64,000 nucleotides of DNA, from contig NZMY01000050.1 in the NCBI GenBank assembly GCA_002694745.1, positions 456,232 to 520,231 of the forward strand, given 5' to 3'. The stretch comes from Croceicoccus sp. GTDB taxonomy: Bacteria; Pseudomonadota; Alphaproteobacteria; Sphingomonadales; Sphingomonadaceae. Shown here piece after piece: positions 35,785 to 59,454 of this stretch; the first letter of the stretch is position 1, and every line of letters starts with the position of its first letter. A program made the translations under genes and the position numbers. The notes under the pieces are model-generated. The model worked only from the letters and a program-made list of their open reading frames with translations, ran no database searches and was not told the DNA's origin.

Positions 35785-37613
35785 TGCGAAACCTTGTCGG
35801 CGCGGCAGATCGCCCAGCCGAATGGTGGAAGGGAAAAGCGGGCCGATCCGGGTGCGCTGGCCGCGGCGGGGCAGCTGCCCGCCAGCGTTTCCAGCGTCTG
35901 CACTCGCGAATCGATCACGACATTGCGGGTGATGGGCGCGTCCGACGTGTTGAACGCCAGCACATATTCGCGCCCCGTTTCCGGATCGAAGCGCGAGACA
36001 GCGAACAGCCCCGGCTCCTGTTCGTAAGCGCGCACCATCTGGCGGCCGCGCGACAGGGCAGGGTGCGCGCTGCGGATAGCGGAGAATTGCGCGATCAGGC
36101 GGTAGAGCGGATGGTCAGGGTCGAAATTGGCCTCTGCCGTGGTCGCATCGGTGCCGATCAGCGCGTTGTCGTTATAGACGGCGGTCCGGCTGGCAAACAT
36201 ATCCTCGCGCGCAAGCTGGTCGTTGCCGTCGCCGACGAAGCCTTGCTCGTCGCCGTAATAGATGACCGGCGATCCGCGCAGCGTCAGCATCATCGCATGG
36301 CCCAGCATCACGCGGGCGAGCAGTTCGTCCTGCCCGATCTGCGGCATATCCTCGCGCAGCAGGGTCGAAAAGCGGCCCATGTCGTGATTGCCAAGGAAGG
36401 TCGGCAGGTTCAGCGCCGCTTCGTCTCCGCCTTCGTAGAGCACGTCGCCGTCGAACAGTTCGTTGAGGATGACTGTGCCCTTGCCGCGTCCCAATGCCTC
36501 GCGCATCGAGGACTGGAAGGCGAAATCGAGCACGGCGGGCAGGCCGTCGCGGCGGGTATATTGCGCGATATAGCCGTTGGCGGGCACGTCCTTGTAGACT
36601 TCGCCGAACATGTGGAAATTGGGAATACCGCGGGCGCGGGCACGGGCCTGCATGGCGGGGACGAATGCCTGCCAGAATCCGGGATCGACATGGCGCGCGG
36701 TGTCGATGCGGAACCCGTCGATGCCGAAGTCGTCGATCCACGATCCATAGATGTCGATCATGCCCTGCCGCACGCGCGGATGTTCGGTGAACAGATCGTC
36801 CAGACCCACGAAATCGCCGAAGCGGCTGTCCTCGCCGGTAAATGTCGAATTGCCGCGATTGTGATAATAGACCGGATCGTTGAGCCACGCCGGGACCTTC
36901 ACCTCCTCCTCGCCCGCCGGGACATAGGGGGTGTAGGCGAAGGACGGGTCGGTCAGCCTGGCGAAATTGGCCTCGCTGCTGTCGGTGTCGCCCATGAATC
37001 CGGGGTTGATCGCTTCGCCGTTGGGGCCGCCTTTCGTCGAATAGGGAAAATCGGCGCGGCTGCGATAGAGATAGTCGTTCGCTTCGCCTTCGCGGTAGCG
37101 GATGACATCGGCGGTGTGGTTGGTGATGATGTCCATATAGACCTTCATCCCGCGCGCATGGGCCGCGTCGACGAAGGCACGGAATTCCTCGCGCGTGCCG
37201 AAATGGCTGTCGGGCCGCGTGAAATCGGTCACCCAGTAACCGTGATAGCCCGCGCTTTCGTCGCCCACCGGTCCTTGCACGACCTTGTTCTGGAAGATCG
37301 GCGCGAACCAGATCGCGGTGATCCCCATGCCCTGCAGGTAATCGAGCCTTTCGGTCAGGCCTTTCAGGTCGCCGCCGTGGAAATAGCCCTTGGCTGCGGG
37401 ATCATATCCCGTGGCCAGCCGGTCGCCGGTAAGGCCGCCGCGATCGTTGGCAGGATCGCCATTCTCGAACCGGTCGGGCAGCACGAAATAGACCACTTCC
37501 TCCGAAGGCGCGCGCTCGCGGAACGCCTCGGAAGCCGGCTGTGCCTGCACCGAGGCGCAGGCCGACAGGGCGAGGCCGGATATGGCGGCGAGCACGGGGA
37601 ATATGCGTGTCAT
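35781..37613 (-). CDS. GH13 alpha-amylase, secreted lipoprotein
   Basis: Lipobox LALSAC; VVYFVLPDRFENGDPANDRGG, DGFRIDTARHVD, FLGNHDMGR. Confidence 0.9.
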   Translation of the reverse strand: MTRIFPVLAAISGLALSACASVQAQPASEAFRERAPSEEVVYFVLPDRFENGDPANDRGGLTGDRLATGYDPAAKGYFHGGDLKGLTERLDYLQGMGITAIWFAPIFQNKVVQGPVGDESAGYHGYWVTDFTRPDSHFGTREEFRAFVDAAHARGMKVYMDIITNHTADVIRYREGEANDYLYRSRADFPYSTKGGPNGEAINPGFMGDTDSSEANFARLTDPSFAYTPYVPAGEEEVKVPAWLNDPVYYHNRGNSTFTGEDSRFGDFVGLDDLFTEHPRVRQGMIDIYGSWIDDFGIDGFRIDTARHVDPGFWQAFVPAMQARARARGIPNFHMFGEVYKDVPANGYIAQYTRRDGLPAVLDFAFQSSMREALGRGKGTVILNELFDGDVLYEGGDEAALNLPTFLGNHDMGRFSTLLREDMPQIGQDELLARVMLGHAMMLTLRGSPVIYYGDEQGFVGDGNDQLAREDMFASRTAVYNDNALIGTDATTAEANFDPDHPLYRLIAQFSAIRSAHPALSRGRQMVRAYEQEPGLFAVSRFDPETGREYVLAFNTSDAPITRNVVIDSRVQTLETLAGSCPAAASAPGSARFSLPPFGWAICRADKVSQ

Positions 37614-39115
37614 GCGGGTTCCTTGGCGCGGCCGTTGATGAAGTCCTGCAGGAAGTCGATGTGTCGCGGCATGGCGCGCACCTGTTCGACAAGCGCAGCC
37701 TCGGTTCCCTGCATCAGGTCGCGCAATTGCGCTTCGTCCAGCGTGTCGGCGATGGGGTTATGGCCCTGCGCCTCGACGCCTTGGCCGGCGAAGACCTGGA
37801 ACCACGCAACTTCGGTGAACAGTTCTTCGTGCTCGCGGTGGATGAAGCCGGTGTCGCGCCACAGCGCGATCTTGTCGGTCAGCGTGGAGGGTAGCGGCAT
37901 GGTGCGGACCGCGTCCCAGAACGGCTCGCCGTGCCGTTCGTTCGCGGTGTAGTGCAGGATCAGGAAGTCGCGGATGCGAGTCCATTCGAAATCGGCCTGC
38001 GCGTTGAAATGGCTTATCGCGGCCTCGCTGGGCCGGCCGTCGGGCAGCAGGGCGAGGAAGCGGCTGATCGCGCTCTGGATCAGATGGATGCTGGTCGATT
38101 CCAGCGGCTCCATGAAACCGGCGGCAAGGCCGAGCGCGAGGCAGTTGCGGTTCCAGTGCTTGCGCCGCTTGCCCGTCGTAAAGCGGATCGGACGGGGATC
38201 GGCCTGCGTCGCGCCGTCGAGATTGGCCAGCAGCATTTCCGCAGCCTCGTCATCCGGTAGATGGGCAGAGGAATAGACCAGCCCGTTGCCGATCCGGTGC
38301 TGCAATGGAATGCGCCACTGCCACCCCGCCTTGCGCGCGATGGATTTGGTGTAGGGCGTGAAATCCCCGCCGCCCTCGCAAGGCACGGCCATCGCGCGGT
38401 CGCAAGGCAGGTAATTCGACCAGTCGTCGAAGCCGGTCTCAAGCGCCCCTTCGATCAGCAGTCCGCGAAATCCTGTGCAGTCGATGAAGAAGTCCGCCGC
38501 CAGCACCCGCCCATCGTCCAGCGTGATCGAGGCGATGTCGCCGCTTCCCCCGTCGCGGTCGACCGATGCCATGGTGCCTTCGTGCCGCTCCACGCCCCGC
38601 GCTTCGGCATGGCGGCGCAGCAGCGCGGCATAGAGACCGGCGTCGAAGTGATAGGCATATGGCATTTCCGCCCCGGCGGAGGTCCGCCCGCGCTGCATCC
38701 GCATGGTGCGCGCGGCCAGCTCGTTCAGCGAATAGCGTTGCAGCGGCTTTGCGAAACCCAGTTGCCGGGCACGCAGCCAGTAATGCTGGAACGGCAGCAG
38801 ACCGATACCGCGTCCGATCTGGCCGAACGCATGCATATAGCTGTGCCCGTCACGCAGCCAGCCGTCGAATTCGATCCCCAGCTTGAAGCTGCCGCGCGTT
38901 TCGCGCAGGAATTCCGCCTCGTCCAAGCCGATCGCGCTGTTGAACAGGTGGATCTGCGGGATCGTCGCCTCGCCAACGCCCACGGTGCCGATTGCATCGC
39001 TTTCGACCAGCACGATCCGGTGTCCGGCGGCAAAGCGGGAGAGGGCGGCCGCCGCCATCCAGCCGGCGGTTCCGCCGCCCGCGATCAGGATCGTAGGTTG
39101 CTGTGTATCGTCCAT
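37610..39115 (-). CDS. Flavin-dependent tryptophan halogenase-family protein
   Basis: GGGTAGWMAAAAL FAD motif, WQWRIPLQHRIGNG (WxWxIP), LGLAAGFMEPLESTSIHLIQSAI. Confidence 0.88.
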   Translation of the reverse strand: MDDTQQPTILIAGGGTAGWMAAAALSRFAAGHRIVLVESDAIGTVGVGEATIPQIHLFNSAIGLDEAEFLRETRGSFKLGIEFDGWLRDGHSYMHAFGQIGRGIGLLPFQHYWLRARQLGFAKPLQRYSLNELAARTMRMQRGRTSAGAEMPYAYHFDAGLYAALLRRHAEARGVERHEGTMASVDRDGGSGDIASITLDDGRVLAADFFIDCTGFRGLLIEGALETGFDDWSNYLPCDRAMAVPCEGGGDFTPYTKSIARKAGWQWRIPLQHRIGNGLVYSSAHLPDDEAAEMLLANLDGATQADPRPIRFTTGKRRKHWNRNCLALGLAAGFMEPLESTSIHLIQSAISRFLALLPDGRPSEAAISHFNAQADFEWTRIRDFLILHYTANERHGEPFWDAVRTMPLPSTLTDKIALWRDTGFIHREHEELFTEVAWFQVFAGQGVEAQGHNPIADTLDEAQLRDLMQGTEAALVEQVRAMPRHIDFLQDFINGRAKEPA

Positions 39116-48282: not shown

Positions 48283-49734
48283 CTACTCCAGACCCAGCGC
48301 GTCGAGGTCGACCGTCGCGGCCGCAAGGTCTGCCTGGGCGGCGGCAATGCGTGCCTGCGCGTTGATCAGCTGGACCTGTGCATCGGTCGCGGTCTCCTCG
48401 CGCTGGTTGACGAGGAAGAAATTGCTTGACCCCAGCTGGAACCGCCGCCGCTCGGCCTGCGCCAGTTCGCGGGCCAGTTCGAATTCGCGGCGCGACGTTT
48501 CGACCAGCCGCTCCGCGCCGTTCAGCGCGATGCGCATCGTCTCGACCTCGGTCTCGATCCGGTCGCGCAGGAATTCCTGCTGGATGGCCAGTTCGTCCAA
48601 CTTCGCCTCCGCCTCGACAACGCGGCCCTTGGCGGCCCGGTTCTGCAGCGGGACCGAAAACTGAAAGCCGACAATGGTTTCGAATGGCGTCCGGCTGAAA
48701 CCGCCCAGCCCTTCATCACCGATGTCCTTGGCCAGCTTGCCGACAAGGTCGAGGCGCGGCCGCATGGCGTTTTCCGCAAGGGCGAGCGACAGGACCGACT
48801 GGTCGACGCGCGCCAGCAGGCTCTGCAATTCGGGGCGCTGCGAGAGAGTGAAGTCGGGATCGACCGACAGCAGCGCCAGCGCCTGCGCATCGGATGGCAG
48901 GCGATCGGCCCCGACAATGACGGGATTGCCCGAAGGATCGCGATAGAACAGGGACAGGCGCACTGCCGCAGCCTCGAACGCCTGCTCCGCCTCGATCACG
49001 CGGGCGCGTCTGCGGACGAGGTTCTGCTCATTCTCGGTCTGCAGGATGCGTGGCTGCGCGCCAAGCTGTACCTGCCGGTCGATGGCGCCGGTGCGGTCCT
49101 GCGCCAGTTCCAGCAACTCGCGATAGGCCTGCAGCCGAAGCCCCGTGGCCACCCAGTCCTGATAGGCCGCGATGGTGCGGCTCTGCACGCCGATGGCGGC
49201 GGCCTCCGCCTCGAACCGGGCGACATCGATGCCGCGTGCCGCGATCGAACGCTGCGCGCGCCGTTCGTCAATCAGCCGGTCGCGCAGCAGCGAGAACAGC
49301 GCGCCGATCTGCAATTCGCCCAGCCGATTGGTAAAGGCCTCATCCTCATAGATCGGAAAATCGCCCCGGCTGACGCGATAGCCGCCATAGGCATAGCCGC
49401 CGTTGGTGCCCAGCGGCTGGTTGGCGGTCCCTTCGACGATGGTGCCGTCGTAATAGCCGGTCACCCGGCTGCGCCCTTCGACATCGAAGACGGTGTCGAA
49501 CGCGCCTTCGGAGCGCAGAGCCGCGCCCTGCGCCTGCCGGATCCTTGCCAGCGCCTCGATAATCTGGGGGGCCGTCCGGGCAGAGCGGCGCAGCACGTCG
49601 CTCAGCAGCAGCGGGCCTGTTTGCGGATCCTCTGCAACCACCATGGCCGGACCGTCGGTGGCCTGCGCCAGAACGGTCGCGGGCGCGGTGAGGGCGGCTC
49701 CCGCAATGATGATCCAGACCCTGCTTCGCCTCAC
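48283..49734 (-). CDS. TolC-family outer membrane efflux protein
   Basis: Signal peptide, long coiled-coil repeats, QRPELQSLLARVDQSVLSLALAENAMRPRLDL. GTG start overlaps the HlyD stop (GTGA). Confidence 0.87.
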   Translation of the reverse strand: MRRSRVWIIIAGAALTAPATVLAQATDGPAMVVAEDPQTGPLLLSDVLRRSARTAPQIIEALARIRQAQGAALRSEGAFDTVFDVEGRSRVTGYYDGTIVEGTANQPLGTNGGYAYGGYRVSRGDFPIYEDEAFTNRLGELQIGALFSLLRDRLIDERRAQRSIAARGIDVARFEAEAAAIGVQSRTIAAYQDWVATGLRLQAYRELLELAQDRTGAIDRQVQLGAQPRILQTENEQNLVRRRARVIEAEQAFEAAAVRLSLFYRDPSGNPVIVGADRLPSDAQALALLSVDPDFTLSQRPELQSLLARVDQSVLSLALAENAMRPRLDLVGKLAKDIGDEGLGGFSRTPFETIVGFQFSVPLQNRAAKGRVVEAEAKLDELAIQQEFLRDRIETEVETMRIALNGAERLVETSRREFELARELAQAERRRFQLGSSNFFLVNQREETATDAQVQLINAQARIAAAQADLAAATVDLDALGLE

Positions 49735-50783
49735 AACGAGGACCCCCAGTTTCCGCCCGGACTCGATGCGGCTTCGTCAGTGCGGTCATATTGCAGCGGG
49801 AAGTCGTTCAGCTGGCGCCAGATCTCGAAGCCCACGGTGACGGTATTGCCGCGGATCCAGCCCACGACATTGCTGCCCTGCCTGACGTAACGATCGCCGG
49901 GCCATGGACGTTCGGCATCGGGAAGGGGCTCGACGATGACGCGGAACTGGCCGTTGGGGGCGGCCACCGGATCGATGGTGCGGACACGCCCGTCATAGAC
50001 GCCGTAGACAAGGTTCGGCCATCCGCTGAACTGGACGGCGGGAAACCCCTCGAACTCCAGCCGCACGGGGCTGCCGCGTTCGATGATCGGCACGTCGCGC
50101 GCATCGACGAATATCTCGACCGCGCGCTCCACCTGTTCGGGCGCGATCACGGCTAGCACGGTGCCCGCCGTGATCAGCTGTCCGCCGGCTTCGCCATTAA
50201 CCTGCTGTATGCGGCCCTCGCGCGGGGCGGTCACCACCTGGGCCGAGCGGCGGTTGATCTCGGTCTCGATCCGGTTGATGCCCGCGCGCGCCTCGGCAAT
50301 CGTGGCATCGGCTTCGGCGATGCGGATCTGTGCCTGCTCGTATTCGCGCCGCGAAGCGAGCCCTTCGGCAAGCAGTTGCCGCGTACGTTCCACGTCGATC
50401 GTGGCGACCTGCCGCGCCTGCCGCATGGCCGCGATCTCCGCCTCGAGCTGGCGGCGTTCGGAATTGAGGCGGGAGAGCAGGTTGGGGTCGACGTCGACCA
50501 CGCGCGCGATCGGATCGCCGGCCGCCACCCTGTCGCCATCGCTGACGAAGAACTGTTCGACACGTCCGTCGATCAGCGACGACACCTGACGCGCCCTGTC
50601 GTCCGGATCGAGCGAGACGACCTTGCCCATGCCCTGCGCGGTCTGCACCCAGGGCACGAACAGCAAGCCTATCGTCAGCACGAAGCCGATGCCGATCATC
50701 CACGCCATCACCACCGCGAAGCGCGGCGGCCGGAGCGAGGCGAGGGTTCTGAAATGCTTAAGGTTTTCCGGCCGATCAGGCAT
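49731..50783 (-). CDS. HlyD-family periplasmic adaptor subunit
   Basis: One TM, lipoyl/hairpin DGRVEQFFVSDGDRVAAGDPIARVVDVDP, PREGRIQQVNGEAGGQLITAGTVLAVIAP. Confidence 0.87.
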   Translation of the reverse strand: MPDRPENLKHFRTLASLRPPRFAVVMAWMIGIGFVLTIGLLFVPWVQTAQGMGKVVSLDPDDRARQVSSLIDGRVEQFFVSDGDRVAAGDPIARVVDVDPNLLSRLNSERRQLEAEIAAMRQARQVATIDVERTRQLLAEGLASRREYEQAQIRIAEADATIAEARAGINRIETEINRRSAQVVTAPREGRIQQVNGEAGGQLITAGTVLAVIAPEQVERAVEIFVDARDVPIIERGSPVRLEFEGFPAVQFSGWPNLVYGVYDGRVRTIDPVAAPNGQFRVIVEPLPDAERPWPGDRYVRQGSNVVGWIRGNTVTVGFEIWRQLNDFPLQYDRTDEAASSPGGNWGSSL

Positions 50784-52479
50784 CGTGATGCTCCTGCTCG
50801 GCAAGGAAGCGCATCAGCTCGTCATGGCTGTCGAACCTCTGCTGGTGCTGGCTGCCCAGATAGAGCCAGCCGTCGCGCGCGATCGCTTCGGGCCGCTTGG
50901 TCGAGAGCAGCACGGTGGTGTCCGATGCGCGCAACTCGTCGAGCGCGAGCTGAAGGCGGTGGACCGGCATCATGTCGAACAATTCGGACAGCAACAGCAC
51001 GCGCGGCTTGCCCAGAAGGGCGCCCGCCAGTTTCAGCTGCATGACCTCGGCAATGGTCAGCGGCGCGCCCGACGACGACAATACCGTGTCCAGCCCGTCG
51101 GGCAGCGTCGCGATCCGACGTCCCAGTCCCACGGTATCGAGCGCGGCCATCATCGCGCGGTTTCCGCCGTCGCCGACTTCCAGCGCCAGATATTCGCGGA
51201 TCTTGACCTCGACGATGGTGGGGCGATTGAGCACGGTGACCGCGGTGCGCAGCAGATACATGTCGAACGTGCCAAGATCGCCCTTGCCGATCAGCAATTG
51301 CCCACGGTCGGGCAGGGCATGCCGTTTGAGCAGGGACGCCAGCAGGCGTTCCATGCCGGGTTCGACAACCGCCACCACCTGTTCGCCGCCTTTCAGCGAG
51401 AACGAGATATGCGCGTCGCCCTTTACCACTTCGCGCATATAGACCGACCCGTCGGACGGCGCCTCTCCGGTGACCTGTCCGCTTTCCTGCGGGATCGAGA
51501 ACAGGAGGGTCAGCTCTTCCGAGCTGGCGATCATCTCGTAGAACGTGTCGAGGTACCATCCGAGCTGCGAGATGCCGTAGAACACGCCCGAAAGGATCAG
51601 CTCGGCCGCCACCAGCTGTCCGATCGACAGCTGGCCCTGGATGATCAGATTGCCGCCCAGCGCCAGCAGGCCCGCGCTCGCCAGCGCATAAACCAGGAAA
51701 TAGGCCACCGCCTGCGAGAAGCTGTAGCGGAAATATTGCTTGTGCGCCTCGATATAGGCGGCGGTGACGCGTTCGGTGCGGTCCATCGCAAAGCCCATGT
51801 GGCGGCTGGACTTGTAGAACCCGTTCGATCCGCCGACGCTTTCCAGCCAGTGCGCCGCCTTGTGCTTTGCATCCGACAGCCCCACCGCGCCCGTCACCGC
51901 GCCGCGCCGCCACATGATCCAGATCAGCATCACGACGAACACCAGCAGCACGTTGAAGGCCAGGAAGAACGGGTGATAGAAGCTGGTGACGGCAAGCCCC
52001 ACCACGGCCTGAAGGATGATGGTGAACGCGCCGATCACCAGGCTGGGCACCGATTTTTGCAGCACCGGCATGTCGAAGAAGCGGTTGAACAGATGTTCGC
52101 TGTTCGCGTCTGAGAAATAGGGGTTCTGCGCGTGCACGGCCTTGACCGTGATGCCAGCGACGATGCGCGCGAACAGCCGCCGTTCGAACATCGCCATGAC
52201 ATACAGGCGCAGCGCACTGAGCGCCGCCACGATCAGCAGCAGCAGCAGCAATATGCCCGACAGCGTCCACAGCGGAGCCGGAAGCGAGGTCCGCGCGACG
52301 CTGTTGATCAGCACCTGGACCGAAATCGGCGTGGCCAGCGACAGCAGGGTTATCGCGACGGTATAGACGATGCCGATCCGAACATAGCCGTAATCGGGCC
52401 CGATGACTTCCGACATCCACAATGCCGCATCGCGCAATCCCAGTCTTTGTCCCGCCACTCTAGCCCCTTGATCGATCAA
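50776..52479 (-). CDS. ABC exporter-like protein with TM domain and degenerate nucleotide-binding domain
   Basis: ABC exporter TM domain then an NBD-like C-terminus (ISFSLKGGEQVVAVVEPGMERLLASLLKRH...RVLLLSELFD...TVLLSTKRPEAI). Walker A/B, signature and H-loop are all substituted. Start (TTG) uncertain. Confidence 0.82.
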   Translation of the reverse strand: MIDQGARVAGQRLGLRDAALWMSEVIGPDYGYVRIGIVYTVAITLLSLATPISVQVLINSVARTSLPAPLWTLSGILLLLLLIVAALSALRLYVMAMFERRLFARIVAGITVKAVHAQNPYFSDANSEHLFNRFFDMPVLQKSVPSLVIGAFTIILQAVVGLAVTSFYHPFFLAFNVLLVFVVMLIWIMWRRGAVTGAVGLSDAKHKAAHWLESVGGSNGFYKSSRHMGFAMDRTERVTAAYIEAHKQYFRYSFSQAVAYFLVYALASAGLLALGGNLIIQGQLSIGQLVAAELILSGVFYGISQLGWYLDTFYEMIASSEELTLLFSIPQESGQVTGEAPSDGSVYMREVVKGDAHISFSLKGGEQVVAVVEPGMERLLASLLKRHALPDRGQLLIGKGDLGTFDMYLLRTAVTVLNRPTIVEVKIREYLALEVGDGGNRAMMAALDTVGLGRRIATLPDGLDTVLSSSGAPLTIAEVMQLKLAGALLGKPRVLLLSELFDMMPVHRLQLALDELRASDTTVLLSTKRPEAIARDGWLYLGSQHQQRFDSHDELMRFLAEQEHHDA

Positions 52480-52860
52480 ACTGTTCGCAGTCGCGGTACA
52501 TATGGAGACAGGCGGCCGACTGAAAGCGGCCCTTGATGTCCCGAATGTAATTTATTGTTTCCGTCCGGCTATCCATAACGACATCTGTTGCCGCTGGCCA
52601 CGCCGGCGACGCGCCAACCATGCCGGGCAGGGGAAGGCACCGGTCGGGCCGGGCCTGCCGAAGATGCGACCGTCGCCCTTAACAGCAAAGTGCCCGTTGT
52701 TGTTGTTCGGTTCAGAAATGGCACGACTTTGACTTCAGATTTTCTTTTGCAGGATGCTCCGCTAATATTCGGGGCGACGCTCGGGTGATCGGGCGGCTTT
52801 GGCCTTTTTCGCGCGCCGGGGGGCATTATGCGCGGCGGGCGATGGAGGGGGCAAGGCCGC

Positions 52861-55800
52861 ATGGGGCCGGATCATATTGCATATCTCGTGACAGAGGATC
52901 GCGGCGAAGCCGTGCCTGATGCCGATACCGGACCCGAGAGCGCCGACAGCCTGTCCGCAAGGTTTCGGGATGTCGCGCGCGCACAGGGCGCCAAGGTGGC
53001 TGCCCGCTGCGGCGAGCAAGAACTGTCCTATGCCGCGCTGGACCGGCTTTCGAGCCAGCTAGCCAATCGGCTCAGGCGCATGGGCGTGTCGGGGGGCGCG
53101 CTTGTCGGCCTGCATGTCGGCCGCGATCTCGATATTCTCGTTGGCATATTGGGCATCATCAAGGCGGGCGGCGCCTATCTGCCGATGGATCCCGTCTATC
53201 CCGCCGACCGTCTCGCCTTCATGGCGGATGACGCCAATGTGGGGATCATCGTTACAAGGGGCGCGCTGGCGGGCAATCTGGTCGATACCGGGGCCGTTCT
53301 TGTCGATATCGGCGATTGCGGCGGCGAAAGCGCGTCATCTCCGCTCGCGGAAACGGGCGGCGGTGATCTGGCCTATGTGATCTATACTTCGGGTTCGACC
53401 GGCAAGCCCAAGGGTGTGGCCGTCAGCCATGCCAACGTATTGCGCCTGTTCGATTCGACGCAGCACTGGTTCGGTTTCGGCAGCGACGACGTCTGGACGC
53501 TGTTTCATTCCTATTCCTTCGATTTCTCGGTGTGGGAAATCTGGGGCGCGCTGCTTTACGGCGGATGCGTCGTGGTGGTCCCCGTGGAAGTGGGCCGATC
53601 GACCGAGGCGTTTCGCAGCCTTGTCCTTGCCGAAGGGGTAACGGTGCTCAACCAGACCCCGTCCGCCTTTCGCCGCTTCATCCAGGCGGACCGCGCCGCT
53701 GCGCCCGCCGATTATGCGCTGCGCCATGTGATATTCGGCGGCGAGGCGCTGGAGTTTCAGTCGCTGCGCCCGTGGTTCGCCCGCTATGGAGACCGATCGC
53801 CCCGCCTAATCAACATGTACGGCATTACCGAGACGACGGTGCATGTCACCTATCGCCCGGTCACGGTGAACGACCTCGATGCAGGACGCGGCAGCATCAT
53901 CGGAGAGCCGATACCCGACCTCACGCTTCACATTCTGGACGAGAACATGCGTCCCGTCCCCACCGGTGTCAGCGGCGAGATCTATGTCGGCGGCGCAGGG
54001 GTCGCGTCGGGCTATCTCAACCGCCCCGAACTGACGGCGCAGCGCTTCCTTGCCGATCCGTTTTCTTCGGACCGCAATGCACGGCTGTATCGCACCGGTG
54101 ACCTTGCCTTGCGCAACCGGGAAGGGGAGATCGAATATCTCGGCCGCGCCGACCATCAGGTGAAGATCCGCGGCTTTCGCATCGAGCTGGGCGAGATCGA
54201 AGCGCAGATCACCCGCGACGAGGCGATTCGGAACGCCGCCGTCATCGCGCGGCCCGACCGTTCGGGGGAACAGCAGATCGTCGCCTATCTGGTGACCGAC
54301 CAGACCGCGCACGAGGGACTAGCCGCCCGCCTGCGGGCGCGGCTGAGGGCCGTATTGCCCGATTACATGCTGCCCGCTCATTTTGTTCTGATCGACGATC
54401 TGCCGCTGACGGAAAACGGCAAGCTCGACCGCGCGCGGCTTCCCGAACCGGGGCAGGCACGCGCCAGCGCGGCCTATGTCGCGCCCAGGGGTGAGCGGCA
54501 GGAACTGATCGCGCGCATCTGGTCGGACGTGCTGGGCGTCGAACAAATGGGCGCGCATGACGATTTCTTCGAACTGGGCGGCCATTCGCTGTTGATCATC
54601 GACGTGCTGCAACGGCTTCGGGCGCATGGTCTGCACGTCTCCGCCGGCGACATGTTCCTGACGCCCACCATCGCGGCCATCGCCGATCTGGCAGAGCAGC
54701 ACGGATCGACTGAAGCCATCGCCCTCAGCAATATTCCGCCCGATTGCGACGCGATCCGGCCCGATATGCTGGATCTGGTCACGCTGGACGAGGATGAGAT
54801 TGCGCTGATCGAACGCACGGTTCCGGGCGGGGCCGCGAATATTCAGGACATTTATCCGCTCACCCCGCTGCAGGAAGGCATCTTCTATCACCACCGCGTT
54901 TCGGCCAGCGGCGATCCCTATCTGGTCACGACACTGATGGCCGCCCGCTCGCGCGAACAGGCGATGCGCTATGCCGCGGCGGTGCAGTCCGTGGTGAACC
55001 GTCACGACATCCTGCGCAGCGCCTTTCTGGCCGAGGGCCTGCGTCATCCGGTGCAAGTCGTGTGCCGCGAAGCGCGCGTGTCGGTCGAGGAGATGCAGTT
55101 CGAGCCTGCCGAGGGCGATGTCGCCGGGCAATTGCTCGACCGTTTCGATATGCGTCATCACCGGCTGGCGGTCGATCGCGCTCCGGCCATACGGCTCTAT
55201 ATCGCGCAGGATCCGGCGAACGAGCGCTGGCTGATCCTGCGTTCGCATCACCATCTGATAGAGGACCACACGACCGACGAGCTGATGAGCGGCGAGATCG
55301 CGGCGCTGATGGCGGACGGGGGCGCGGATCTTCCCGAACCGCTGCCGTTTCGCGCATTCGTCGCGCGTACCGCTGACAAGGCGGAGGCACCGGAATCGCG
55401 CGAATGGTTCGGCGAATTGCTGGGCGATCTGGATGAACCGACTGCCGCTTTCGGCCTGACCGAAACGGCGCAGGATGAACCGATAAAGGATGCGCGGCTG
55501 CGGCTGGACGACGGCCTATCGGAACGGCTGCGCATTATTGCCAGATCGCGCGGCGTAGGCGTCGCCAGCCTGTTCCACCTCGCCTGGGGGCTGGTGGTCG
55601 GACAAAGCTGCGGACGCGGCGATGTCGTTTTCGGTACCGTCCTGTTCGGGCGGATGCAGGCGGGCGATCATGCGGATCGCATCCTTGGCCCGATGATCAA
55701 TACGCTTCCGCTGCGCCTGCGCTTTGCGGGCCGCAGCGTGGCCGAAGCGCTGACCGACACGCATGAGCTGCTGGCCGGATTGCTGCGCCACGAACATGCG

Positions 55801-58800
55801 TCGCTGGCCATGGCGCAGGCCTGCAGCAGGCTCGCGCCGGGTGTTCCGCTGTTCAATGCGCTGATCAATTTCCGCCATGTGCAGATCCGCGGCGGGCGCG
55901 AGAGTACCAGGGTCCACGCGATGGGTCCGGCGATCGAGGCGATGGGGCTTGAGCTTCTGTCCTTCACCGAAAGGACGAATTACGCGCTCGAACTGTCGGT
56001 CGATGATCTTGGCGACGGCTTCATGGTGGAGGCGCAGTCGCGTCATCCGGTGGATCCCGCCATATTGTGCGACGCCGTGGCGGCCGCGCTGGAAGATATC
56101 GCCGCAAAGCTTGAGTTCGAGCCCGATGCGAGGACGGAGGACGTCCGCATTCTCTCCGCCGCTGCCGAGCGGCGATTGCTGCACGATTTCAACGACACCG
56201 CCACCGAATTCGGCACGCCCCAGCGCCTCCACGCCGCCTTCGAGGGGCAGGCGGCCCGCACACCCCAGGCGGTCGCGCTGGAGTTAGAGGGGCGCGAGAT
56301 GTCCTATGGCGAACTCGACCGCCGCGCCAATGCGCTGGCGCGCGCCATGCGCCAGGCGGGTGTGAGACGGGACGCGCTTGTCGGCGTATGCGCCGAACGC
56401 AGCTTCGAGATGGTCGTCGCGCTTTATGCCGCGCTGAAGGCAGGCGGTGCCTATGTGCCGCTGGACCCGTCGCTGCCTGCGGCGCGCCTTGCCGACATGC
56501 TGGCGGATGCCGCACCGAAAGTGGTTTTGTGCCAGCCGCATCTGCGCGACCGTATCGCGGGCTTCGAAGGCAAGATCCTCGATCTCGACCTCGCGGCGGA
56601 AACGGAAATCGCGAACGGCGCCCCGCTTTTAGACGAGGGCGAGCCGGGCGACCTTGCCTATGTAATCTTCACATCGGGCTCCACCGGGCGGCCCAAGGCG
56701 GCAATGAACGAACATCGCGGCATCGTGAACCGGCTGAACTGGATGCAGGCGCAATACGGCCTGACGGCAGACGACCGGGTGCTTCAGAAAACGCCGTTCA
56801 GTTTCGACGTGTCGGTCTGGGAATTCTTCTGGCCGCTGATGGTCGGCGCAAGGCTGGTGATCGCGCGGCCCGATGGCCACCGTGACAGCGGCTATTTGGC
56901 CGAACTGATCCGGTCGCGCGCCATCACCACGCTGCATTTCGTCCCGTCGATGCTGCGCGTGTTTCTCGAGGAACCGGCCGCCGCCGATTGCCCGTCGATC
57001 CGCCGCGTCATCTGCAGCGGAGAGGCGCTGACCCACGATCTTCAGACCGCCTTCTTCGATCGCTTCGCAGAGGCGGATTTGCATAATCTGTATGGCCCGA
57101 CCGAAGCGGGTGTCGACGTCACCCACTGGACTTGCCGCCGGGACGCGCAGGGCACCATCGTTCCCATCGGCAGGCCGGTCGCGAACACACGCATCCATAT
57201 TCTCGACGATCGCCTGCGGCCCGTTCTGCAAGGCGCGCCGGGCCATGTGTTCATCGGCGGGGGGCAGGTCGGTCGCGGCTATCTCGGCCAGGGCGAACTC
57301 ACTGCGGAGCGGTTTGTTGCGGATCCGTTTTCGGGCGATCCCGCGGCTCGCATCTACCGGACGGGCGACGTCGGGCGATATCTGCCGGACGGCACCATCG
57401 AATATCTGGGGCGCAGCGATTTCCAGGTGAAGATCCGCGGCCAGCGCATCGAACTGGGCGAGATCGAGGCGCGGCTGGAAGAGATCGAAGGCATCACGCA
57501 AGGCGTCGTCCTGGCGCGCGAGGATCCCGTGCAGGGCGCGCAGCTGATCGCCTATTATATCGCGTCGGACCAGCCAATCGATCCGGCACACCTGTCCGCG
57601 GAACTGGGGCGCTCGCTGCCGTCCTATATGGTGCCGGCTATTTTCGTCGAACTGGCGGAGATGCCGCTGACCTCCAGCGGAAAAATCGACCGCAAGGCCT
57701 TGCCCGAGCCCGGACCTGCCGAGCGCCAGCGCAGCGCTACGCCGCCGCGCGACGATGTCGAACGGGCGATGGCGGCGATCTGGCAGGACATGCTGGGCGC
57801 ATCGGAAATCGGCATAGACGAGGATTTCTTCGCGCTCGGCGGTCATTCGCTGTTGGCGTTGCAGATGCTGGTCCGGCTTGAAAGGCAGATGGGACTGCGT
57901 ATCCCGATCCGGACGGTGGTCGAGGGACGGACGATCCGCCGCATCTCGGACGGACTGGAAAACACAGCCGGAACCGATCTTCCCGAGGGGCTGATCCGCC
58001 TGCATGGCAGTGTGTCCCAGCGACCGCTGTTCTGCATACCCGGCGCGGGCGGCGTCGCGCTGCAGTTCGAGAATCTGGCGCGCAAGCTGGAGGGGGACCG
58101 CGCGGTCTATGCATTCGAATTGCACGAGATGGACGCGGGGCCCGCACGCTGGCCGACGATGCAGGATTATACGCAGGCGGTGGCCCGTGCGATGCGCGAG
58201 GTGCAGCCGGACGGTCCCTATTCGCTGATCGGCTTTTCGTCCGGCGGCAATCTGGCAGTCGAGGTCACAGCACTTCTGGAAAGCCAGGGGCAAAAGGTCG
58301 ACACATTGTGGGTGGTCGATTCCTATGCGCCGGGCACGATCTATCTGACCAGCCAGCTGGCGCGTTGGAAGGGGCACTTCGACGAGATCGTCGGCCTGCC
58401 GCTGCACGAGATACCCGGCCATCTGCGTTTCCGCGCAAGACGCATGTTTGGCCGTCTGCCAAGACGGCGGCGCGGCGAAACCGAGCTGGAATTCAAACTG
58501 CGTCTGGCGGAAGAGCGCGCCGAAAAAGTGCAGAAAAATTATGCGGCCAGCTCCGTGAAGACCGCGATCCACTGGACCCGCGCCAGCGGCACCATGGCCG
58601 AGAATTTCTGGGCCACCTTCGTCGATCCCACCGAAACGGGCGGCTGGATCGACCTGTGTAGCGAGCTCAAGGTCTATCGCTTCGACTGCGGCCACCACGC
58701 CATGTTGAAGGAGCCGCAGTTGGGCAGGCTGGCGGATCACATTTCCGAAAGTCTGCGTGCCTGCCGTGCGCCCGAACTAGAGTGCGATGGCGGTCACCAC

Positions 58801-58845
58801 ATGGCCGTCTGCCGCGAACCAGCGGCCGTCGAACCTTGTGCCTGA
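52861..58845 (+). CDS. Two-module non-ribosomal peptide synthetase: A(Thr)-PCP-C-A(Ser)-PCP-TE
   Basis: Two A domains (YTSGSTGKPKG / FTSGSTGRPKA), two PCPs (LGGHSLLIIDVL / LGGHSLLALQML), one C domain (HHLIEDHTT), TE with GFSSGG. ORF opens at 52828; ATG 52861 has a ggaggggg RBS. Confidence 0.93.
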   Translation: MGPDHIAYLVTEDRGEAVPDADTGPESADSLSARFRDVARAQGAKVAARCGEQELSYAALDRLSSQLANRLRRMGVSGGALVGLHVGRDLDILVGILGIIKAGGAYLPMDPVYPADRLAFMADDANVGIIVTRGALAGNLVDTGAVLVDIGDCGGESASSPLAETGGGDLAYVIYTSGSTGKPKGVAVSHANVLRLFDSTQHWFGFGSDDVWTLFHSYSFDFSVWEIWGALLYGGCVVVVPVEVGRSTEAFRSLVLAEGVTVLNQTPSAFRRFIQADRAAAPADYALRHVIFGGEALEFQSLRPWFARYGDRSPRLINMYGITETTVHVTYRPVTVNDLDAGRGSIIGEPIPDLTLHILDENMRPVPTGVSGEIYVGGAGVASGYLNRPELTAQRFLADPFSSDRNARLYRTGDLALRNREGEIEYLGRADHQVKIRGFRIELGEIEAQITRDEAIRNAAVIARPDRSGEQQIVAYLVTDQTAHEGLAARLRARLRAVLPDYMLPAHFVLIDDLPLTENGKLDRARLPEPGQARASAAYVAPRGERQELIARIWSDVLGVEQMGAHDDFFELGGHSLLIIDVLQRLRAHGLHVSAGDMFLTPTIAAIADLAEQHGSTEAIALSNIPPDCDAIRPDMLDLVTLDEDEIALIERTVPGGAANIQDIYPLTPLQEGIFYHHRVSASGDPYLVTTLMAARSREQAMRYAAAVQSVVNRHDILRSAFLAEGLRHPVQVVCREARVSVEEMQFEPAEGDVAGQLLDRFDMRHHRLAVDRAPAIRLYIAQDPANERWLILRSHHHLIEDHTTDELMSGEIAALMADGGADLPEPLPFRAFVARTADKAEAPESREWFGELLGDLDEPTAAFGLTETAQDEPIKDARLRLDDGLSERLRIIARSRGVGVASLFHLAWGLVVGQSCGRGDVVFGTVLFGRMQAGDHADRILGPMINTLPLRLRFAGRSVAEALTDTHELLAGLLRHEHASLAMAQACSRLAPGVPLFNALINFRHVQIRGGRESTRVHAMGPAIEAMGLELLSFTERTNYALELSVDDLGDGFMVEAQSRHPVDPAILCDAVAAALEDIAAKLEFEPDARTEDVRILSAAAERRLLHDFNDTATEFGTPQRLHAAFEGQAARTPQAVALELEGREMSYGELDRRANALARAMRQAGVRRDALVGVCAERSFEMVVALYAALKAGGAYVPLDPSLPAARLADMLADAAPKVVLCQPHLRDRIAGFEGKILDLDLAAETEIANGAPLLDEGEPGDLAYVIFTSGSTGRPKAAMNEHRGIVNRLNWMQAQYGLTADDRVLQKTPFSFDVSVWEFFWPLMVGARLVIARPDGHRDSGYLAELIRSRAITTLHFVPSMLRVFLEEPAAADCPSIRRVICSGEALTHDLQTAFFDRFAEADLHNLYGPTEAGVDVTHWTCRRDAQGTIVPIGRPVANTRIHILDDRLRPVLQGAPGHVFIGGGQVGRGYLGQGELTAERFVADPFSGDPAARIYRTGDVGRYLPDGTIEYLGRSDFQVKIRGQRIELGEIEARLEEIEGITQGVVLAREDPVQGAQLIAYYIASDQPIDPAHLSAELGRSLPSYMVPAIFVELAEMPLTSSGKIDRKALPEPGPAERQRSATPPRDDVERAMAAIWQDMLGASEIGIDEDFFALGGHSLLALQMLVRLERQMGLRIPIRTVVEGRTIRRISDGLENTAGTDLPEGLIRLHGSVSQRPLFCIPGAGGVALQFENLARKLEGDRAVYAFELHEMDAGPARWPTMQDYTQAVARAMREVQPDGPYSLIGFSSGGNLAVEVTALLESQGQKVDTLWVVDSYAPGTIYLTSQLARWKGHFDEIVGLPLHEIPGHLRFRARRMFGRLPRRRRGETELEFKLRLAEERAEKVQKNYAASSVKTAIHWTRASGTMAENFWATFVDPTETGGWIDLCSELKVYRFDCGHHAMLKEPQLGRLADHISESLRACRAPELECDGGHHMAVCREPAAVEPCA

Positions 58846-59454
58846 CCGGCCCAGACCCTCGATGTCGATACAGGTCGTGACAGCGAAACCGCTTTCCGAC
58901 GTTTCTACCGCGACCTCGCGGTAATCGACGAAGGCCCTGCCGATGGGAAACTGCGCCTTGTAGAACGCTTCCTTGGCCGAAAACATCAGGGTCGCGGCGG
59001 CGCGGCGCTCGTCCTGCGGCAGCAGTGCCAGTCGCTCGCGCTCCTCGGTCCTGAACAGCAGGTCCTGCAACTCGTCCGTTACGGCCCGTCGCTGTTCGAC
59101 GTCGATGCCGATTGATCGCGCCGTAACGTTAGCCGCGACGACCGCCATGGCGATCGTGCCGCTGTGCGAGATGCTTCCGATCGCGCCTTGCGGCCAGATC
59201 GGCATGCCCCGTTCCCCGCGCAGCACGGGCGCGTCGCCATAGCCCAGTGCATCGAGGCAGCTTCGCGCGCAGGCCCGGCCAGCGAGGAATTCGTCTCGCC
59301 TTCGTTCCGCAGCGCCGGCGACCAGCACAGCCTCTGCCGGGTGGTGCCGCGCGCCGGTCAGCGGAATCGCGCATCCGCACGCAGCGACGGGAAAGTCGAA
59401 CAGGCCGCGCAAGGCGGGCAGGTCTTCGATCCTGTCGGCGGATATCGGCACCAT
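58777..59454 (-). CDS. 4'-phosphopantetheinyl transferase (Sfp/EntD type)
   Basis: SISHSGTIAMAVVA, SIGIDVEQRR, FSAKEAFYKAQFP. Convergent with and overlapping the NRPS 3' end. Confidence 0.9.
   Translation of the reverse strand: MVPISADRIEDLPALRGLFDFPVAACGCAIPLTGARHHPAEAVLVAGAAERRRDEFLAGRACARSCLDALGYGDAPVLRGERGMPIWPQGAIGSISHSGTIAMAVVAANVTARSIGIDVEQRRAVTDELQDLLFRTEERERLALLPQDERRAAATLMFSAKEAFYKAQFPIGRAFVDYREVAVETSESGFAVTTCIDIEGLGRSGTRFDGRWFAADGHVVTAIAL

Follow-up and report, generated by a model that had tools for sequence, protein, structure and literature searches.

A HlyD/TolC-linked family of ABC exporters lacking the catalytic motifs of its nucleotide-binding domain

ATP hydrolysis is a defining feature of ABC exporters, and, to our knowledge, the known degenerate members still bind ATP, at the least, or have one functional site. 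What, then, is the role of an exporter whose ATPase domain has lost every catalytic motif? The question is posed by a 64,000-nucleotide stretch of DNA from Croceicoccus sp. (the window), in which an initial annotation, made from the sequence alone, described such a protein next to HlyD and TolC genes. We followed it from the fold of the protein to its relatives, its conserved residues and its gene neighborhood.

Fold and operon of the window protein

The ABC gene and the genes for a HlyD-type periplasmic adaptor and a TolC-family outer membrane factor lie on the same strand and form one operon (Table 1). The open frame spans 567 codons when counted from TTG 52479; the probable true start is GTG 52458, placed there because homologues begin at MAxQRxG, which yields a protein of 560 amino acids, the same length as the nearest relative. 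The frame is open, as described initially, and an 8-bp overlap between the ABC stop and the HlyD start, with a 4-bp overlap between the HlyD stop and the TolC start, bears out the coupled start and stop codons. Elsewhere in the same assembly, contig C11 opens with 6000 bases that match window positions 51518–57517 at 99.97%, reflecting either a repeated segment or assembly redundancy.

Table 1 Features of the exporter operon in the window
Feature	Position	Strand	Basis
Degenerate-NBD ABC exporter (TMD + pseudo-NBD)	50776..52479	(-)	Open frame, NCBIfam, AF2 model, Foldseek
Six-helix type I exporter transmembrane domain (TMD), residues about 20–330	51490..52422	(-)	Pfam ABC_membrane; model helices
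Pseudo nucleotide-binding domain (NBD), residues about 345–550	50830..51447	(-)	NCBIfam full-length matches; AF2 NBD topology; Foldseek
Glu293 codon, TM6	51601..51603	(-)	64/64 degenerate relatives; Asn or another residue in canonical exporters
Former Walker A (VEPGMERLL)	51340..51366	(-)	Alignment with 23 canonical exporters
Former Q-loop Gln (Asn418)	51226..51228	(-)	Alignment with 23 canonical exporters
Former signature LSGGQ (LTIAE)	51046..51060	(-)	Alignment with 23 canonical exporters
Former Walker B (VLLLSE; Asp to Ser)	50983..51000	(-)	Alignment with 23 canonical exporters
Former H-loop His (Lys528)	50896..50898	(-)	Alignment with 23 canonical exporters
HlyD-type periplasmic adaptor	49731..50783	(-)	Start ATG 50783; C-terminal motif FEIWRQLNDFP
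TolC-family outer membrane factor	48283..49734	(-)	Start GTG 49734; Pfam OEP 2.9e-27

A Pfam scan of the ABC protein returned ABC_membrane alone, with no match to ABC_tran. Whole-length HlyB/LssB models from NCBIfam match residues 19–531 (E 1e-24 to 1e-25), with scores below the curated cut-offs of this subfamily (88.7 of 725 bits for TIGR01846 and 86.9 of 693 for TIGR03375). We built a single-chain AlphaFold2 (AF2) model from a 44-sequence alignment, in which the NBD is confidently predicted (pLDDT about 80–94 in most blocks) and the TMD is weaker (mean pLDDT 76.7 overall). Foldseek aligned the model over its full length with the structures of PCAT1 and HlyB (TM 0.82–0.85). By predicted fold, the C-terminal half is an ABC NBD and not some other domain, consistent with the NBD layout that had been read from the sequence.

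The protein shares with exporters of the HlyB and LssB/LapB type I secretion systems (T1SS) the succession of exporter TMD and NBD fold, an operon with the HlyD adaptor and the TolC outer membrane factor, and its best NCBIfam and structural matches. It differs from them in lacking any catalytic NBD motif and a C39-like N-terminal domain, in belonging to a separate TMD clade and in having a distinct HlyD that ends in YE[LI]WRxxNxFP. A Persicobacter relative (L105:7473-9644, 724 amino acids) has an N-terminus about 150 residues longer than that of the window protein; this extension is possibly a C39-like domain and has no Pfam match.

Catalytic motifs across the family

We aligned 64 degenerate relatives with 23 canonical exporters, which show little or no variation in GK[S/T], Q, LSGG[Q/E], DE and H. 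The motifs for ATP hydrolysis (Walker A, LSGGQ, Walker B and H-loop) are missing from the window protein. GK[S/T] is replaced by EPG-MERLL, with K377 changed to Glu; Q418 is changed to Asn; the signature reads LTIAE in place of LSGGQ; and H528 is changed to Lys, all as first noted. The claimed loss of Walker B (LLLSE) stands for the Asp, D498 being changed to Ser, whereas the Glu (E499) is retained in the window and replaced by Pro or Gln in most relatives. None of the 64 aligned relatives carries the canonical catalytic set. Position 418 is Asp or Asn in nearly all Sphingomonadales relatives, and the signature position varies across the family, reading LSVGE, LTIAE, LSLPK or LQALE. A Walker A-like P-loop persists in four relatives (L089, L105, L121 and L123), none of which has a canonical signature or Walker B; the three that were scanned, L089, L105 and L121, each still match Pfam ABC_tran.

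Relatives of the window protein occur in 7 of 14 genomes of the genus and in 53 of 400 sampled genomes of the family (13%), a patchy distribution indicating that the system is not essential. The named records that contain one belong to Croceicoccus, Novosphingobium, Sphingomonas and Novosphingopyxis. Plasmids, among them some of Sphingobium, also carry relatives, and at 30–43% identity they occur in another family of the order and another class of the phylum; more distant ones reside on Bacteroidota plasmids (Persicobacter, Riemerella, Aureibacter). The same degeneracy thus recurs with open frames across many species and is not a local decay of the window copy. The search turned up no close homologue with intact motifs, although genomes outside those searched may harbor a fully canonical one.

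To keep the eroded NBD from driving the result, we computed a tree of 50 degenerate and 15 canonical sequences from the TMD columns alone. The degenerate sequences form one clade against the canonical exporters with full support (100/100). Three changes are needed to explain the absence of Walker A on this tree, and the starred branches force two or more of them; long branches leave the order of the deep nodes in the clade uncertain. With two or three independent losses of Walker A at the least, ATP binding is dispensable, and the plain reading is an early disappearance of catalysis followed by repeated loss of the P-loop.

The state of the signature bears on whether a partner could restore activity. 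The active site of known heterodimeric exporters still draws its LSGGQ from the degenerate half. The signature needed to complete a partner's site is missing from the window protein, and with this motif lost and variable, neither composite site would be canonical. This weighs against the heterodimer considered initially, in which the window protein would be the inert half and an active half-transporter encoded elsewhere would supply ATP hydrolysis. Heterodimeric exporters often contain a degenerate subunit (PMC7756269), and a search of the host genome for other ABC proteins found two canonical T1SS exporters in addition to MsbA-, Atm1- and CydC-like ones. However, one of these two T1SS exporters clearly sits with a HlyD and a TolC of its own, and the second adjoins a TolC and a giant secreted-protein gene. 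Moreover, 12–13 of 45 host genomes lack a T1SS-type ABC, their best match scoring about 294–329 bits, the level of MsbA, against 570–880 for true ones. In the neighborhoods read, no active partner half-transporter was found within the operon and no other ABC gene travels with it. An MsbA-like protein could still be the partner, but given the lost signature and the genomes devoid of a T1SS-type ABC, we consider a heterodimer improbable.

Selection, conserved residues and HlyD linkage

Nei–Gojobori dN/dS values were computed for close pairs (dS < 0.6, amino-acid identity > 80%), divergent pairs being set aside as saturated. The ratio is 0.07–0.32 for the NBD and 0.03–0.18 for the TMD; the NBD is therefore under purifying selection, less constrained than the TMD. 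The lower constraint would suit a once active exporter turning into a pseudogene in several lineages, as would a frameshift in the NBD of one relative (G010, near codon 418) and the further eroded NBDs of two relatives from small genomes (L130, L131). Such relaxed decay is nevertheless very unlikely: reading frames are open in nearly all relatives, dN/dS is well below 1 in close pairs, HlyD and TolC are strictly retained, and the family spans at least two phyla. In G010 (L013/L014), HlyD is intact and the frameshift is either a pseudogene or a sequencing error. The genomes of L130 and L131 measure about 2 Mb, and their NBDs miss short stretches near the former Walker A.

Among Sphingomonadales relatives, 57 of 311 TMD columns are invariant, as opposed to 14 of 206 in the NBD. 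Five TMD residues (E293, Q157, Y314, Q55 and R133) are present in all 64 degenerate relatives and five more (K142, H169, K205, W211 and Q256) in 62–63 of them; this conservation reaches across phyla, and most of these residues differ in canonical exporters. Glu293, assigned to TM6 from a predicted helix (residues 286–327) and the alignment, is a membrane-helix carboxylate kept without exception, which makes it a candidate coupling residue; alternatively, it could serve the structure or bind substrate.

The NBD has lineage-wide invariants of its own in Sphingomonadales, with R419, P473 and D502 present in 47 of 47 sequences and K385 in 46 of 47. These residues could serve ligand binding or docking, as expected if the ABC-like protein merely anchored the HlyD–TolC conduit, or gated it upon binding a ligand, and transported nothing. 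We judge a pure scaffold or regulator of this kind unlikely, since the most conserved part of the protein is the TMD, not the NBD, its invariant polar residues are those expected of a transport path, and no other inner-membrane pump accompanies the operon in the neighborhoods read.

A HlyD with a C-terminal YE[LI]WRxxN[GDN]FP-type motif stands beside every degenerate relative whose neighborhood was read, a count that leaves out L132 and L133, canonical exporters that entered the set by chance. In a search of 32 genomes with the window HlyD, it was present in 9 of 9 genomes with the degenerate ABC and absent from 23 of 23 without. The degenerate ABC and this type of HlyD co-occur one to one, and their linkage is obligate. 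The window operon carries all the marks of the family, namely the degenerate NBD, the invariant TM6 Glu, the HlyD ending and TolC. The conserved degeneracy, open frames, purifying selection and strict HlyD linkage sustain the initial proposal of selection for a non-hydrolytic role over random decay.

Possible mechanism and genomic context

We propose that the three genes encode an envelope-spanning tripartite exporter whose inner-membrane part would be a homodimer of the ABC type I exporter fold. This homodimer would no longer hydrolyze ATP and, in the window lineage, probably no longer binds it. The TMD dimer may still move substrate into the HlyD–TolC conduit by an ATP-independent route, which would be either secondary-active, probably proton-coupled via polar residues near Glu293 that are specific to the family, or a gated form of facilitated export. 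The pseudo-NBD would be retained as a cytoplasmic dimerization and gating piece.

We lean toward this reading in its general form, a tripartite exporter with ATP-independent, possibly proton-coupled transport and an NBD serving as structure or gate; we infer substrate transport, its energy source and any proton coupling. Two options from the initial annotation remain within it, a passive or PMF-driven exporter and a structural NBD. The more specific claim, that a natural and widespread family of ABC-fold tripartite exporters has abandoned ATP for secondary-active, proton-coupled transport with the NBD as a structural gate, is tentative and stands somewhat short of probable. The dead NBD could alternatively act as a regulator or ligand sensor.

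Several known systems resemble parts of this arrangement. SUR1 and CFTR use the ABC fold in roles other than ATP-driven pumping, and both still bind ATP; their likeness to the family lies in this use of the fold, with no closeness in sequence claimed. The heterodimeric exporters TM287/288, TmrAB, TAP and BmrCD likewise possess a nucleotide site that is not canonical and that selection has preserved (PMC7756269), but their degenerate half keeps nucleotide binding and one composite site is canonical, whereas here all motifs are gone and no partner is linked. Proton-coupled transport has been reported for the NBD-less MsbA-MD and LmrA-MD (PMC4979069; see also PMC2704374), which share with the present family a type I exporter TMD devoid of ATPase; those proteins are engineered truncations, while the present family is a natural state that keeps the NBD fold.

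Literature searches for ATPase-dead ABC exporters or for this operon gave no earlier description of the family; they covered few subscription journals and so do not establish novelty. Conserved homologues with no catalytic motif would offer a natural test of the role of the NBD beyond catalysis, and could also help to settle the dispute over whether ABC exporter TMDs alone couple to the proton gradient. If the more specific claim is true, a primary pump evolved into a secondary one. The public annotation of these proteins, often 'ABC transporter ATP-binding protein', would be misleading.

Beyond the three genes, no conserved neighbors were found in the loci read. As to a secreted protein substrate encoded nearby, an RTX-like gene adjoins one relative only (L025). 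DabA (DUF2309)/DabB-like inorganic-carbon transport genes were discarded as a linked system, as they flank the operon only in L021, L029 and L106. LysR-type genes flank several loci, and in three relatives belonging to another class they are NhaR-like; such genes are too common and too mixed to be interpreted as a conserved regulator.

In the window, a two-module NRPS gene (52828-58845, plus strand; A-PCP-C-A-PCP-TE by Pfam) diverges from the operon across about 350 bp, and its end is overlapped by a convergent Sfp-type 4'-phosphopantetheinyl transferase gene (58777-59454, minus strand). Export of an NRPS product was dismissed as a general role, given that the window is the sole locus read with an NRPS beside the operon, and it is kept as a local lead only. 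Farther away, a tryptophan-halogenase-family gene (37610-39115, minus strand) sits beside a large TonB-dependent-receptor-like gene, near glycoside hydrolase-like genes, and a similar pair follows the operon in L088.
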